Source of the DNA: an uncultured Bacteroidota bacterium
GTDB taxonomy: Bacteria > Bacteroidota > Bacteroidia > Bacteroidales > P3
Reading direction: 5' to 3'
Length of the DNA: 64,000 nt
Assembly: GCA_902784865.1 (NCBI GenBank)
Contig: CACZWL010000014.1
Location: 1-64,000, forward strand
Part shown: positions 6,448-60,875 of the stretch, piece after piece
Layout of the letters: every line of letters begins with the position of its first letter
Position numbering within the stretch: position 1 is the first letter of the stretch
Translations under genes and position numbers: made by a program
The notes under the pieces: generated by a model
What the model was told of the DNA's origin: nothing
Databases searched by the model: none
Seen by the model: only the letters and a program-made list of their open reading frames with translations

Positions 6448-6790
6448 AACGGCGAATAATACGAATTGTGCGAATTGCTTGCGCAGGTCGATTTACAGTT
6501 AATTACTCGAATTGACCTCTAACCTTTTTCATTCTTCATTCTCTACCCCTAGGAATCCCCTAAGGATCCCCCTAGTATATCCCTAGAAGTATAGACTTGG
6601 TATAGAGTTGGTATAGACTTGGTATAGCGTTGGTAGATATAAATATCTGGAAATTTGTGCGTTACACAGACCTGATACCCGAAGCAACTTTATACACCCC
6701 CTCTATCATTCTGGTGCACAACGGGTTGCAAAGGTATGGGGTGGATGGTTCGATGCTGCAAAGGTACGTAAAAAATCCGAACCGTGCAAG
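6448..6790 (-). repeat. Dispersed promoter-bearing repeat, copy A
   Basis: This is one of three copies, in minus orientation. Read on the minus strand it begins CTTGCAC with TTG at -33, then TACCTTTG (6759-6766) 20 bp later. A second TACCTTTG lies 30 bp on (6729-6736). Next come the segments CCCCATACC and GAGGGGGTGTATAAAG, then 11-bp GGTA units (6588-6636), CTAGGGG repeats (6546-6582) and AATTCG repeats, ending TTCGCCGTT. It aligns end to end with copy B. It fills the space between two convergent genes, and no other gene is seen here. Confidence 0.8.
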
Positions 6791-16266: not shown

Positions 16267-16308
16267 ACTCAATACGTTATGGGCACCGCATCGCGCCGAT
16301 GCCTTCTG

Positions 16309-16346: not shown

Positions 16347-16674
16347 CTTGCACAATCCAGATTTTCTTCGTATCTTTGCACCATCGAACCGGCCACCCCA
16401 TACCTTTGCAACCCATTGTGCACCAGGACGATAGAGGGGGTGTATAAAGACACCCCGGGTATCAAGGCCGCATAACACACAAATTTCCAGTCATTTATAG
16501 CCAAAAAACCTATACCATCCATATACCATCTATATACCATCCTTATGGATTGTAGGGGAATCCTAGGGGAATGGGTGGTGAAAGGTGAGAGGTGAAGGGA
16601 GAAAGGTCAATTCGATTGACTAGCTGCAAATTGACCTGCGCAAGCAATTCGCATAATTCGTACAATTCGCCGTT
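16347..16674 (+). repeat. Dispersed promoter-bearing repeat, copy B
   Basis: This copy is in plus orientation. TTG at 16348-16350 and TATCTTTG at 16371-16378 are 20 bp apart, and a second -7-like TACCTTTG follows at 16401-16408. It continues with GAGGGGGTGTATAAAG, GGTA 11-mers (on the complement, about 16508-16543), TAGGGG repeats, then AATTCG repeats and TTCGCCGTT. It lies between hflX and leuS, transcribing towards the hflX 3' end. No coding gene of its own is convincing. Confidence 0.8.
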
Positions 16675-21682: not shown

Positions 21683-21697
21683 TTTTTACTGCGTTTC

Positions 21698-21749
21698 AGT
21701 AGGTGTCTGGTAGGTATCTGGTAGGTATCTGGTAGGTGAATACTTCGAC
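21698..21749 (+). repeat. GGTA 11-bp tandem repeat, family 2, copy 1
   Basis: About four 11-bp units of GGTAGGTATCT or close variants (21699-21741) are followed by ACTTCGACT. The same unit and flank occur at 41063-41104 and, inverted and shorter, at 26669-26697. It occupies the lepB-parC spacer. Confidence 0.75.
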
Positions 21750-37050: not shown

Positions 37051-37356
37051 CTTGCACGGTCCAGAATTTCTTCGTATCTTTGCAAGAGCCGACACGGCAT
37101 AGGGGACCGCTGTATCGCACTCTGCATCAGCGCCGTAGAGCACCCCTATAAAGCCCCATCCGGAGCCCCAAAGCAGCAATGCGCTAATTCCCAACAATTT
37201 AAAGCCACCAACTCCATACCAACCCTATACCAACTCTATACCAAGTCTATGCTTCTAGGGGGATGCTAGGGGAATACTAGGGGAATCGAAGGGCGAAAGG
37301 CCAATTCGAGTAATTCGCACGAAATCAGCGTTGCTGCCAATTCGAGTAATTCGCCC
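37051..37356 (+). repeat. Dispersed promoter-bearing repeat, copy C (diverged middle)
   Basis: Plus orientation. It opens CTTGCACGGTCCAGAATTTC with TTG at 37052-37054 and TATCTTTG at 37075-37082, again 20 bp apart. The middle differs from copies A and B, but ACCCCTATAAAG, four GGTA 11-mers on the complement (37207-37250), CTAGGGG repeats (37255-37287) and two AATTCGAGTAATTCGC blocks are kept in order. It fills the space between convergent hbd and ltaE. Confidence 0.75.
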
Positions 37357-38444: not shown

Positions 38445-40328
38445 TTATTTGTCCATTGTGTAGAGGAACTCCTCGTTGTTGCGGGTGTTGGCCATGGCGC
38501 GTTTGAGGAATTCCATTGCTTCGAGCGGGTTGAGGTCGGTGAGGTGGTTGCGGAGGACGAGGGTGCGCGACAGCACGTCGGGCTTGACGAGGAGGTCGTC
38601 GCGACGAGTGGAGGAGGCGGTGAGGTCGATGGCGGGGTAGACGCGCTTGTTGGAGAGTTTGCGGTCGAGCTGGAGCTCCATGTTGCCGGTGCCCTTGAAT
38701 TCTTCGAAGATGACGTCGTCCATCTTGGAGCCGGTCTCGGTAAGGGCTGTGGCGATGATGGTGAGCGATCCGCCGTTCTCGATCTTGCGGGCAGCGCCGA
38801 AGAAGCGTTTGGGTTTCTGGAGGGCGTTGGCCTCGACGCCGCCGGAGAGGACTTTGCCGCTGGCGGGTTGGACGGTATTATAGGCACGCGCGAGGCGGGT
38901 GATGGAGTCGAGGACTATCATCACGTCGTGGCCGCACTCGGTGAGGCGCTTGGCTTTTTCGAGGACGATGTTGGCGATGCGGACGTGGCGGTCGGCGGGT
39001 TCGTCGAAGGTGGAGGCTATGACCTCGGCCTTGACGGAGCGCTGCATGTCGGTGACCTCCTCGGGGCGCTCGTCGATGAGGAGCACCATAAGATAGACCT
39101 CGGGGTGGTTGAAGGCGATGGCGTTGGCCACTTCCTTGAGGAGGGTGGTCTTACCGGTCTTGGGCTGGGCGACGATGAGGCCGCGCTGGCCCTTGCCTAT
39201 GGGGGTGAAGAGGTCGATGATGCGGGTGGAGAGGGTCTCCTGCGGGTGCCCTGTGAGTTTGAATTTCTCGTTGGGGAAGAGAGGTGTCATGCTCTCGAAG
39301 GGGATGCGGTCGCGCACGTGGTCGGGCGAGAGGCCGTTGATTTCGAGTACTTTGACCATGGGGAAGAACTTGTCGCCCTCGTGCGGCGGGCGGACCATGC
39401 CGCGGACGGTGTCGCCGGTCTTGAGGCCGTAGCTGCGGATTTGCTGGGGCGAGACGTAGATGTCGTCGGGCGAGGAGAGGTAGTTGTAGTCGGATGAGCG
39501 GAGGAATCCGTAGCCGTCGGGGACCATTTCGAGGACGCCTTCGGCCTGGATGACGCCTTCCGACTCGTAGTTGCGCTCCTTATGGTTGTCGGCGTGCTGC
39601 TGGGGTTGGGGGTTCTGCTGCTGGGACTGTTTCTTTTCGGGCTGCTGGGGTTGGGGGGCCTGCGGTGCAGGCTCGGTGCGGTCGGGCTGCTGCGCCTGGG
39701 GCTGCTTGGGGGGCTGGGCAGGCTGTTCGGCAGGGGCCGACGGTGTTTCGGGTTGGGGTTCAGGCTGCTGCCCGTCGGCAGGCTGTGCGTTTTTGCGAGG
39801 GCGGCCACGCTTGCGCTTGGGTGCCTCAGCGGCTTCGGGCTGGGGTTGCGGCTCGGCCTCGGGCTGGGGCTGCTGCACGGCGGGTGCTGCTTCGGCCTCG
39901 GTCTTGTAGAAGATGGGGCGGCCGGAGGGGGTGAGGATGTCGGGGACCTCGGGCACGGTGGGCATCTCGAGGGAAGAGAGCTTGAAGTTGAGGGAGGAGA
40001 GGGGGTTCTCGGCCAGCTCGACGGGTTTGACGTCCTGCTGCTGGCGGTTGTTGTCGTTATTGCGGCGGTTGCTCTTGTGCAGCTCGGGGTTTTTCAGGGT
40101 CGACTCGGCGAGGAGTTTGGGTTTGAGGCGCTGGCGTTTGCGCTGTCCCTGGGCGCCGTCGGCAGGCTCGGCGGGTGCGGAGGCGGCGGGGTTGGAGGCT
40201 TGGTGGTCGAGGATTTTGTAGACCAGGTCTTGCACATCGAGGCGCTTTGCTTTGGGGATGCCCATCTTTTCGGCTATGTCTATGAGTTCGATGTGGGCTT
40301 TTGCGGTCAGTTCTGCTTTGCTATACAT
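38445..40328 (-). CDS. rho: Transcription termination factor Rho
   Basis: The 627-residue hexameric RNA helicase terminates transcription. The N-terminal Rho_N helices (residues 1-45) are followed by about 220 residues of Gln/Pro/Glu/Lys-rich low complexity, typical of Bacteroidetes Rho. The RNA-binding domain ([15 protein letters not shown]) and the ATPase with Walker A QPKTGKT and [13 protein letters not shown] come next. The Q-loop and R-loop region is normal ([20 protein letters not shown]). A minus-strand -7 box lies at 40445-40452, leaving a leader of about 110 bases. Confidence 0.96.
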
Positions 40329-41009: not shown

Positions 41010-41062
41010 ATAGGGTCCCTCGCCCACCCAGTCCGCCGACGAGCTGAGGGGGCGAGGCATCT

Positions 41063-41104
41063 GGTAGGTGTCTGGTAGGTATCTGGTAGGTGAATAGTTC
41101 GACT
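41063..41104 (+). repeat. GGTA 11-bp tandem repeat, family 2, copy 2
   Basis: Three 11-bp units (GGTAGGTGTCT, GGTAGGTATCT, GGTAGGTGAAT) are followed by AGTTCGAC, then CGATTTGGAGG. It has the same unit and flank as the copy at 21698. Confidence 0.75.
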
Positions 41105-49375: not shown

Positions 49376-50182
49376 ATGGCAAAAATAGAACAAGGCATCC
49401 TGGGACCCTTCCGCGGCACGGTGGGCACCGTCATCGGCTACCGCTGGCGCGACCGCTGGTGCATGCGCGCGCGGCCGAGCCACTACAACGACCGCCGGAG
49501 CGAGGCGCAACTCACTCAGCGATCGCGGTTTAAGACGATGATACAGTTCGCCTCGCCGGCCACGCCGCTGCTCCGCCTCGGCCTCCGCGCCTGGGCAGCG
49601 GAGCACGGGCTCACCGAAGGCAACGCCTTCCTGCGGCTCAACCACAAGTGGTTTTCTAGAGATTCTAGTATTTCCAGAGATTCTAGTATTTCTAGTATTT
49701 CTAGCAATATAGATTTCCCCAGTCTGCAGTTCTCCCACGGCCACCTGCCCCCCGTCGAGGGCGCCGCGGCCGAGCGGCTCGACGCCGTCACCGTCAGCGT
49801 CAGCTGGCGCCGCGGCCTGGGCCGCGGCGCCGACCATGTGCACCTCTACGCCTACTGCCCGGCCGCAGGCCGCGGCCTGCCTGTGGCCGCCGTGGAACGC
49901 AGTCGCAAGCACGCGCAGTTCATTCTGCCACAGGAGTTTGCCGACCAAGAAATCCACCTCTGGGCCTTCGCCCTCAACGCCGACGGCCAAGCCTCCCCCA
50001 CCCTCTACATCCCCCTAGCCGCCGAGGCCTCCGACGCAATCCTACCCTCCGCCCTACTCACACCCCCCTCTACGACCTGCGACACCCCCGAAACCGCCAT
50101 ACAACAACCACAGAACCAACAGCTTTCCCTCTTCGACCCCCTCTCCGCCGACACCCCATCCTCCCCGCCCCCGCCGCAGTGA
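49376..50182 (+). CDS. DUF6266 family protein, copy 1
   Basis: The 268-residue protein begins MAKIEQGILGPFRGTVGTVI, the conserved start of DUF6266. The N-terminal part continues with CMRARPSHYNDRRSEAQLTQ and RSRFKTMIQFA. The middle holds an insert RDSSISRDSSISSISSNID encoded by CTAG-rich 9-bp repeats, where the second copy (63662) has an ordinary segment. A beta domain (VTVSVSWRRGLGRGADHVHL) and a Pro/Ser tail follow. No function is known for the family. Neither a clear promoter nor a terminator was found. Confidence 0.82.
   Translation: MAKIEQGILGPFRGTVGTVIGYRWRDRWCMRARPSHYNDRRSEAQLTQRSRFKTMIQFASPATPLLRLGLRAWAAEHGLTEGNAFLRLNHKWFSRDSSISRDSSISSISSNIDFPSLQFSHGHLPPVEGAAAERLDAVTVSVSWRRGLGRGADHVHLYAYCPAAGRGLPVAAVERSRKHAQFILPQEFADQEIHLWAFALNADGQASPTLYIPLAAEASDAILPSALLTPPSTTCDTPETAIQQPQNQQLSLFDPLSADTPSSPPPPQ
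49653..49710 (+). repeat. TCTAGTATT 9-bp repeats within the DUF6266 gene
   Basis: Units TCTAGTATT, TCCAGAGAT, TCTAGTATT, TCTAGTATT, TCTAGCAAT follow one another in frame. The 9-bp unit preserves reading frame on expansion. Confidence 0.8.
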
Positions 50183-60505: not shown

Positions 60506-60559
60506 CAGCGTGGTGAGGGTGAAGTGAGAACGACGTAAGTACCTTGACACTAGAAGTTT

Positions 60560-60734
60560 GCCGTGGTCCAGCCCCTGCGTCGGGGAGGGCCAAGAGGGAA
60601 CCGCGTGAGAATCGCGGGCTGTCGCGCAACTGTTACTCCGCGCCATCGACGGGGGTGCACTCTTGCCATTGGGCCACCACGGCCCGAGAAGGCGCACCCG
60701 CCGCAGCGGACCAGCCAGGAGACCTGCCACGGGC
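60560..60734 (+). ncRNA. Cobalamin riboswitch
   Basis: The aptamer shows the standard blocks in order: GCCAAGAGGGAACCGCG with GTGAGAATCGCGGGC, CGCGCAACTGTTACTC, the GCCATTGGGCC element, CCCGAGAAGGCG, and the B12 box AGCCAGGAGACCTGCC (60713-60728). P1 can form between GCCGTGG (60560-60566) and CCACGGGC (60727-60734). The aptamer lies between the nrdD promoter and the ATG, 140 bases upstream. It should lower nrdDG expression when cobalamin is plentiful. Confidence 0.93.
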
Positions 60735-60875
60735 AACAATCTATACGAGCAAGCCGCTTTCGCGTAATAAAGCCGGCCGCCGCTTCCAGCCACCTTTTGC
60801 GGCTGTCGGGCTCCCTGCGCGAAGCTATGTCGACGAATATATATATTAAAGAATAATAACACATAAAATAGACAC

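Follow-up and report, generated by a model that had tools for sequence, protein, structure and literature searches.

Judged from its sequence and context, the dispersed element that occurs three times in the window, i.e. the whole stretch of 64,000 nucleotides analysed here, very probably corresponds to the region in front of one type of DUF6266 gene, its promoter and 5' leader, which has been duplicated to some ten intergenic sites of the genome with the gene itself left behind. Its 11-nt arrays contain evenly spaced cytosines with C in excess of G and would fit bidirectional Rho-utilization sites, which we regard as possible but would rather not wager on. For the joint reading, combining the identity as a DUF6266 leader with a Rho-loading mechanism, we see slightly less than an even chance. 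The copy family, the leader identity, the 11-nt pitch, the order of C before G, and the conserved promoter and length are in hand; from these we infer the mechanism.

The element in the window and in its genome

The window is part of contig 14 of a draft genome of 2.4 Mb that is 98% complete. An earlier note on this DNA had placed three copies in it, and their positions and strands were confirmed: copy A at 6448–6790 on the minus strand, copy B at 16347–16674 and copy C at 37051–37356, both on the plus strand. As claimed there, copies A and B align over their full length (76% identity), and the promoter spacing TTG-N20-TAYCTTTG is present in all three. The middle of copy C had been described as replaced; positions 1–226 of copy B used as query align into it (67%, E 1.7e-11), so that it is diverged and not replaced. 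The location between genes at 3' ends is correct for two copies: copy A is flanked by a phosphorylase gene and a TerB-DnaJ gene, and copy C by a 3-hydroxyacyl-CoA dehydrogenase gene and the gene downstream of rho, in each case with both 3' ends towards the copy (Pfam). It does not apply to copy B, whose neighbours, to judge by Pfam, are an HflX-type GTPase gene, facing it with the 3' end, and leuS, facing it with the 5' end. The leuS start lies inside copy B according to the list of open reading frames and was re-read as near 16268.

Two separable repeats make up each copy, a 5' module and an AATTCG tail that is also dispersed independently. In the 5' module, about 207 nt long, a Bacteroidales-type promoter is followed by GTATAAA, an 11-nt array (CTATACCAACT) and then CTAGGGG 11-mers. 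On the minus strand of copy A the parts are CTTGCAC as the −33 element (6784–6790), the −7 box TACCTTTG (6759–6766) and the GTATAAAG box (6688–6695), both boxes being conserved among copies, the AATTTCCAG motif followed by the short palindrome AGATATTTATATCT (6635–6655), array 1 of C-rich and G-poor CTATACCAAST 11-mers (6587–6638), array 2 of CTAGGGG 11-mers, in which the other strand is C-rich (6546–6586), and the tail (6448–6517). The plus strand of copy B contains the −7 box TATCTTTG (16371–16378), the GTATAAAG box (16442–16449), array 1 of TATACCATC 11-mers (16508–16546), array 2 of TAGGGGAATCC 11-mers (16552–16580) and the tail (16605–16674). In copy C, also on the plus strand, we located the −7 box TATCTTTG (37075–37082), array 1 (37205–37253), array 2 of CTAGGGG 11-mers (37255–37293) and a variant AATTCG tail (37299–37356). 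If up to three mismatches are allowed, the CTATACC 11-mer pair occurs nine times in the window, all within copies A–C, compared to 0.02 expected occurrences.

The AATTCG end had been counted as part of the shared architecture. It is indeed present in copies A, B and C, but not as an integral part: since it is found without the 5' module at many places in the same genome, it represents a separate dispersed repeat. With 20 candidates scored per genome, it was counted at 62 or more places in 12 of 15 relatives. A form of the tail is present in four of the 11 family members (A, B, C and a copy on contig 3) and absent in seven according to our own reading. In front of other DUF6266 genes (L007, L014, L017, L020, L022), AATTCG tails stand after the leader and before the start codon, and two stretches (L023, L029) apparently contain palindromic full versions with AACGGCGAAT ends.

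Three is the correct number of copies for the window but not for the family. A sequence-only profile was built on nine copies obtained by BLAST with copy B and searched against the own genome (150 of 312 candidates scored). It returned these nine and two new ones, i.e. 11 copies of the 5' module with E-values from 7e-48 to 1.5e-17, the next match having E 0.048; the earlier note had named few or no further copies as an outcome that would speak against its proposal. The nine copies have a mean identity of 63% over the first 200 alignment columns and show no net length change over 165 columns. The region of the −7 box is 95% and GTATAAA 97% identical among them, compared to 37–45% in the adjoining blocks, which supports the suggestion made earlier that transcription matters. 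TAYCTTTG is kept in 10 of the 11 copies; it is missing from the contig-9 copy, and of the ten one has no upstream TTG. The TTG/TAnnTTTG geometry is that of an ordinary Bacteroidales promoter. What is notable is therefore not the geometry as such but that diverged copies conserve it. As boxes and length are kept despite the divergence, the predicted promoter and its spacing appear to be under constraint.

The 5' module as a leader of DUF6266 genes

The earlier note had missed that the 5' module corresponds to a predicted DUF6266 gene leader and that the tail is a different repeat. One of the own-genome copies (L041) directly precedes a DUF6266 gene (Pfam). A tblastn search with 29 DUF6266 proteins found DUF6266 sequence at this copy only and none at the other 10 of the 11; around copies A, B and C there was no match in about 1.5 kb on either side. 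As no remnant of the gene is found there, copies A–C can be regarded as solo leaders.

The first profile, made from the own-genome copies only, led to 27 fetched loci of relatives, six of which have a DUF6266-like gene downstream, one of the six being confirmed by Pfam. A match of this profile outside the genus (G037, E 0.006) was dismissed as a chance hit, since it lies in apparently coding sequence. A second model, reaching from the promoter to about +103, was searched over 119 genomes of the genus with 27 candidates scored in each. Among the matches listed, the best two outside the own genome (G091 and G070; model positions 1–128 and 1–129) show the order promoter, leader, CTATACC 11-mers, AAGGTGTAAC 11-mers and a DUF6266-like start codon, and both loci are also among the best matches of the DUF6266 protein search. 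Many weak matches among those listed cover the promoter part only. Eight weaker matches of full reach were fetched, and with neither an array nor a DUF6266 gene in them they were discarded as ordinary promoters.

The search with the L041-type protein gave matches in 59 of 120 genomes. From 30 fetched loci, 26 leaders (L350–L375) were compared, the weaker protein matches (L376–L379) being left out. With the array consensus read from the same 26 leaders, hence not independent of them, and with some near duplicates included (e.g. L366 and L367), 24 of the 26 score at least 34 out of 50 to this consensus, where the highest of 520 shuffles reaches 30, and all 26 exceed their own 20 shuffles. Only 4 of 133 sampled intergenic regions reach 34, three of them being copies A–C. 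The own genome has 21 DUF6266 loci, of which 18 were fetched; one is L041, and the leaders of the 17 others score 21–27. The array is kept in the leaders although the encoded proteins are 37–50% identical to the own-genome one, and in two of the 24 array-bearing leaders it is inverted. Perfect palindromes rich in AT were also noted upstream of DUF6266 genes; they occur in three sequence forms, one of them TATATTCTTCT..AGAAGAATATA, at a similar position of related leaders (L353, L354, L365 and others).

On these predicted leaders the link between array and DUF6266 holds only for the L041 type. DUF6266 as the driver of all arrays was rejected, since array density does not follow DUF6266 copy number (rho 0.15, p 0.46, with five N runs in G033 and G017 wrongly counted as arrays, N being masked in the later counts) and since only 3 of 27 best-scoring leaders of all types have an array (30 loci fetched, two without an open reading frame and one left out). 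DUF6266 matches number 21 in the own genome and 34 in G001, and two more genes of another type lie in the window at 49376–50182 and from about 63660 onward. The predicted structure of the DUF6266 protein is confident (pLDDT 88.8). It gave no PDB or viral structure match at E ≤ 0.001, weak Fn3/Ig-like hits being the only ones; no NCBIfam family matched the 26 aligned members, PHROGs gave one marginal match for one member, and a literature search on DUF6266 returned no paper.

Arrays with an 11-nt period across the genus

In 838 kb comprising the window and sampled stretches we counted 53 lag-11 tandem stretches (44 merged elements), 52 of which are intergenic according to a simple gene finder. 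Other lags from 5 to 25 gave 0–10 stretches each in the same 838 kb, except for 25 at the harmonic 22. A stricter 22-nt test on the genus sample minus G020 and G026 yielded 64 lag-11 arrays in 1,134 kb, compared to 35 at lag 22, 32 at lag 7 and at most 14 at the rest. When the test was loosened, 54 of the 166 intergenic regions that were 100 bp or longer gave an array, compared to five or fewer at any other lag between 7 and 17. The stricter test gave no lag-11 array in 104 kb of G020 and G026, and none was found in 262 kb from twenty genomes of other families. Apart from the harmonic 22, lag 7 is the next most frequent period in the genus, and 7-mer tandem repeats were observed at the empty site of copy A in some relatives (L195, L196, L199, L201).

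The sequence of the array unit differs between species and between array families. Counting one genome per species, the exact array pattern was found in 41 stretches, only in metagenome-assembled genomes titled Bacteroidales, Bacteroidetes, Bacteroidaceae, Prevotellaceae or Prevotella; where a source is given in the title, it is sheep, yak or water buffalo. The arrays are carried by a genus of Bacteroidales, probably one from ruminant guts. A phage or plasmid vector was rejected, as the exact pattern is absent from viral contigs and there was no phage match; the plasmid search gave a single 41-nt match to a Paenibacillus plasmid.

A second family of 11-mers (CACCTACCAGATACC) was seen in the window at 21691–21745 and 41053–41098, both on the minus strand, and in the own-genome sampled stretches L217, L218 and L219; one of its copies lies directly upstream of a gene for DNA gyrase/topoisomerase IV subunit A.

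Strand asymmetry and a possible role in Rho loading

The arrays are biased in base composition. In 31 non-palindromic arrays |C−G| is 0.29, compared to 0.10 in random intergenic DNA. In palindromic elements the pyrimidine-rich arm comes first in 35 of 37, independent of the strand read, although these represent about ten unit families by eye and the 37 are therefore not independent. Where a cluster has a C-rich as well as a G-rich peak, the C peak leads in 30 of 33 cases (11 of 11 in G008, 9 of 9 in G021, 4 of 4 in G028, 2 of 2 in G011 and 4 of 7 in the own genome), compared to 10 of 16 array-free regions. Copies A–C follow the same order, with a C-rich array 1 and then a G-rich array 2. An inverted-repeat stem exceeds all 30 shuffles in 38 of 60 arrays; copies A and C have none, and copy B fell below the array threshold of this test. 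Base pairing between the arms of A and C was dropped on this account. That their arms are not complementary and yet show the C-then-G order suggests that the order rather than the pairing is kept.

The bias is also seen in the leaders. The best sense C/G ratio exceeds the antisense one in 24 of the 26 L041-type leaders (medians 6.5 and 1.3); the own-genome leader (L041) is an exception with 2.3 sense and 4.4 antisense, and no sense bias is seen among the remaining DUF6266 leaders of this genome (6 of 18). For C/G over 78 nt, reading from the promoter side places copy A within the top 0.2%, copy B within the top 0.0% (rounded) and copy C within the top 0.03% of the window; from the other side the values are 0.27, 0.01 and 3.4%, so that copy C is extreme in one direction only.

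RhoTermPredict describes a rut site as about 78 nt with C over G and cytosines every 11–13 nt (PMC6407284). The arrays resemble this, which would explain why pitch and C excess are kept and the sequence is free. With C in excess in the first arm and G in the second, a C-rich arm would be the first that transcripts from either side reach, so that a bidirectional stop would be possible. In the proposed mechanism RNA polymerase would start at the element promoter or read in from a neighbouring gene, the C-rich and G-poor array would be transcribed and its evenly spaced cytosines would load the Rho hexamer, which would end the transcript soon after the array. The module might in this way stop transcription in both directions, and an array ahead of a DUF6266 gene might act as an attenuator. 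A wider version seems rather doubtful to us: the genus would carry portable bidirectional Rho-loading arrays in which pitch and C-then-G order are kept and the units turn over, some having been recruited as DUF6266 attenuator leaders and spread again with the promoter but without the gene.

A rho gene is present in the window on the minus strand (38445–40328; 627 aa with Rho_N, Rho_RNA_bind and ATPase domains by Pfam), with about 216 residues between the Rho_N and RNA-binding domains; Rho_RNA_bind was found in 36 of 41 genomes. The Rho protein of B. theta is described as having a 301-residue disordered region needed for increased termination under condensing conditions, its condensation raising termination (PMC13269538). 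Copy C lies directly downstream of the gene abutting rho, so that a rut-like array is predicted at the end of the rho gene pair.

Several points stand against Rho loading. The sense strand of flanking genes is not preferred (17 of 33 tandem gaps), with sense C>G in 15 and antisense in 6 of the non-palindromic tandem arrays, and divergent genes, too, have arrays between them, namely 8 of the 41 arrays whose two flanks are known. YC dinucleotides are the conserved unit of Rho utilization sites; they are present in 27 of 30 array units, but without excess over column permutation (p = 0.30), so that base composition is enough to account for them. In the DUF6266 leader of the own genome it is the antisense side that is richer in C, and there are the two leaders with an inverted array. 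As RhoTermPredict permits 11–13 nt, an exact spacing of 11 would be more than needed. In many members of the family, long palindromes might mask the Rho site. Rho alone does not bring arrays, since G020 has Rho and no array in 60 kb, and a terminator role does not explain the strongly kept promoter of the gene-less copies.

Placement and alternative explanations

The placement of the element is labile and its position is not conserved. Among the matches listed, nine relatives have the two neighbours of copy A next to each other; eight of them have no 11-mer array at this site (best lag-11 score 9–12 of 22, threshold 18), and in G008 an unrelated 11-mer array is found. G006 and G028 have other arrays next to the same TerB-DnaJ gene, without the other neighbour of copy A in view. 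With 15 relatives searched, the gene pair of copy B is adjacent in none of the 14 in which both genes were found, and that of copy C in none of 12. The gene contexts of the arrays (5-3 12, 3-5 12, 3-3 9, 5-5 8) roughly follow intergenic length, and there is no preference for 3' ends.

This lability around the gene pairs of A, B and C would suit a mobile repeat of the non-autonomous kind: some transposase would recognise the 11-bp-phased array, and the DUF6266 leaders would have acquired arrays by capture. Genome G028 provides a further hint in this direction, as scoring 40 of its 148 first-look candidates gave at least 40 copies of a palindrome of about 117 bp made of 11-mers, with an identity of 86–100%, mostly 92–97%. 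Its ends are ragged, however, there are no terminal inverted repeats common to A, B and C end to end, and no target site duplications are visible, the relatives being too diverged to place the joints exactly. The one transposase family tested, Y1_Tnp, does not track the arrays: it was not found in the array-rich G028 and G008, and was found in G020 and G026, which have no array in the sampled stretches. Moreover, transposition needs no conserved promoter, spacing or link to DUF6266, and we consider this explanation unlikely. The missing terminal inverted repeats also leave a classical MITE unsupported, and the distribution of Y1_Tnp led us to reject a REP/RAYT system. The G028 palindrome itself consists of TTGTTCTTCGA 11-mers (L210, L221, L222, L256–L259, L276–L305) and is apparently nested inside older, degenerate 11-mers.

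ParR on parC is an example of a protein that polymerises on 11-bp-phased sites. A comparable DNA operator could regulate DUF6266, the solo copies being further sites or anchors, and would account for the exact 11-bp pitch as well as for an AT-rich palindrome that stands upstream of the array in 16 of 19 leaders (by eye), with differing sequence and kept symmetry. A strong and ordered excess of C over G is not expected of a double-stranded site, however. The unit sequence changes between species, and there is no candidate protein, the DUF6266 model giving weak Fn3/Ig-like matches only, which makes an operator improbable in our opinion.

About as improbable are trans-acting small RNAs, i.e. RNAs of about 200 nt from the solo leaders that would titrate a binder of the DUF6266 leader or base-pair with targets. 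The −7 box in 10 of 11 copies and the conserved length are compatible with such RNAs, and a multicopy small RNA family is known in Bacteroides (FopS, PMC11697453). Yet the covariation analysis proposed earlier gave 6 RNAalifold pairs with 0 compensatory changes and hence no conserved fold, the single-sequence folds differ between copies, and no Rfam family matched copies A–C in the search of the window or of copy B separately. A simple scan found no intrinsic terminator within copies A and C, and little sequence is conserved beyond the short boxes and the array. A structured small RNA was rejected on these grounds. From the interpretation given in the earlier note, the dispersed family and the role of transcription are supported, the structured small RNA and the classical MITE are not.

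Very improbable, finally, is neutral debris of decayed DUF6266 leaders without function: the gene is absent at 10 of 11 copies and mean identity among nine is 63%, but −7 box, GTATAAA and length are selectively kept at such divergence, as are the arrays in leaders of the diverged DUF6266 proteins.

Comparison with known systems

From a limited literature search we have the impression that 11-nt arrays of this kind were not described previously. The nearest system found is BrickBuilt, together with PgRS/MITE464, in Porphyromonas gingivalis, which according to PMC4596501 is likewise intergenic, with about 10–20 copies and a tandem minisatellite core with flanking segments; the long predicted stem-loops and promoter activity reported there can also be counted as a likeness. 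These repeats differ by units of 23 or 41 nt and terminal inverted repeats like those of the IS5 family (PMC4596501). The element described here has 11-nt units of constant pitch and species-variable sequence, no terminal inverted repeats were found, and it includes a DUF6266 leader. To our knowledge, known rut sites are irregular and are not dispersed repeats. In contrast, the present arrays have an exact 11-nt period, are multicopy and are C-rich and then G-rich, by which they would serve both strands.

The FopS small RNAs of Bacteroides thetaiotaomicron resemble the element in being multicopy and mostly intergenic with their own Bacteroidales promoters, and differ by a length of about 65–70 nt, a seed sequence and a consensus structure, as described in PMC11697453. 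The present element has about 200 nt, no conserved fold and is the leader of a gene; membership in the FopS family was rejected on size and features. REP elements with a Y1 transposase form many dispersed intergenic palindromes. Here, the palindromes are made of iterated 11-mers, and their presence does not follow Y1_Tnp.

If Rho loading applies, the arrays would be natural multicopy rut arrays of fixed pitch, from which the spacing rule of the Rho hexamer could be read as left by evolution and tested directly in Bacteroidales. They would further form a class of dispersed repeats in which period and strand bias, not sequence, are the conserved trait. Even if Rho loading fails, an 11-nt period in about one third of the sampled intergenic regions (54 of 166) needs explaining, and the DUF6266 family gains a conserved cis element.

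As a minor observation, the sole Rfam match in the window is a cobalamin riboswitch at 60547–60745, unrelated to the copies.
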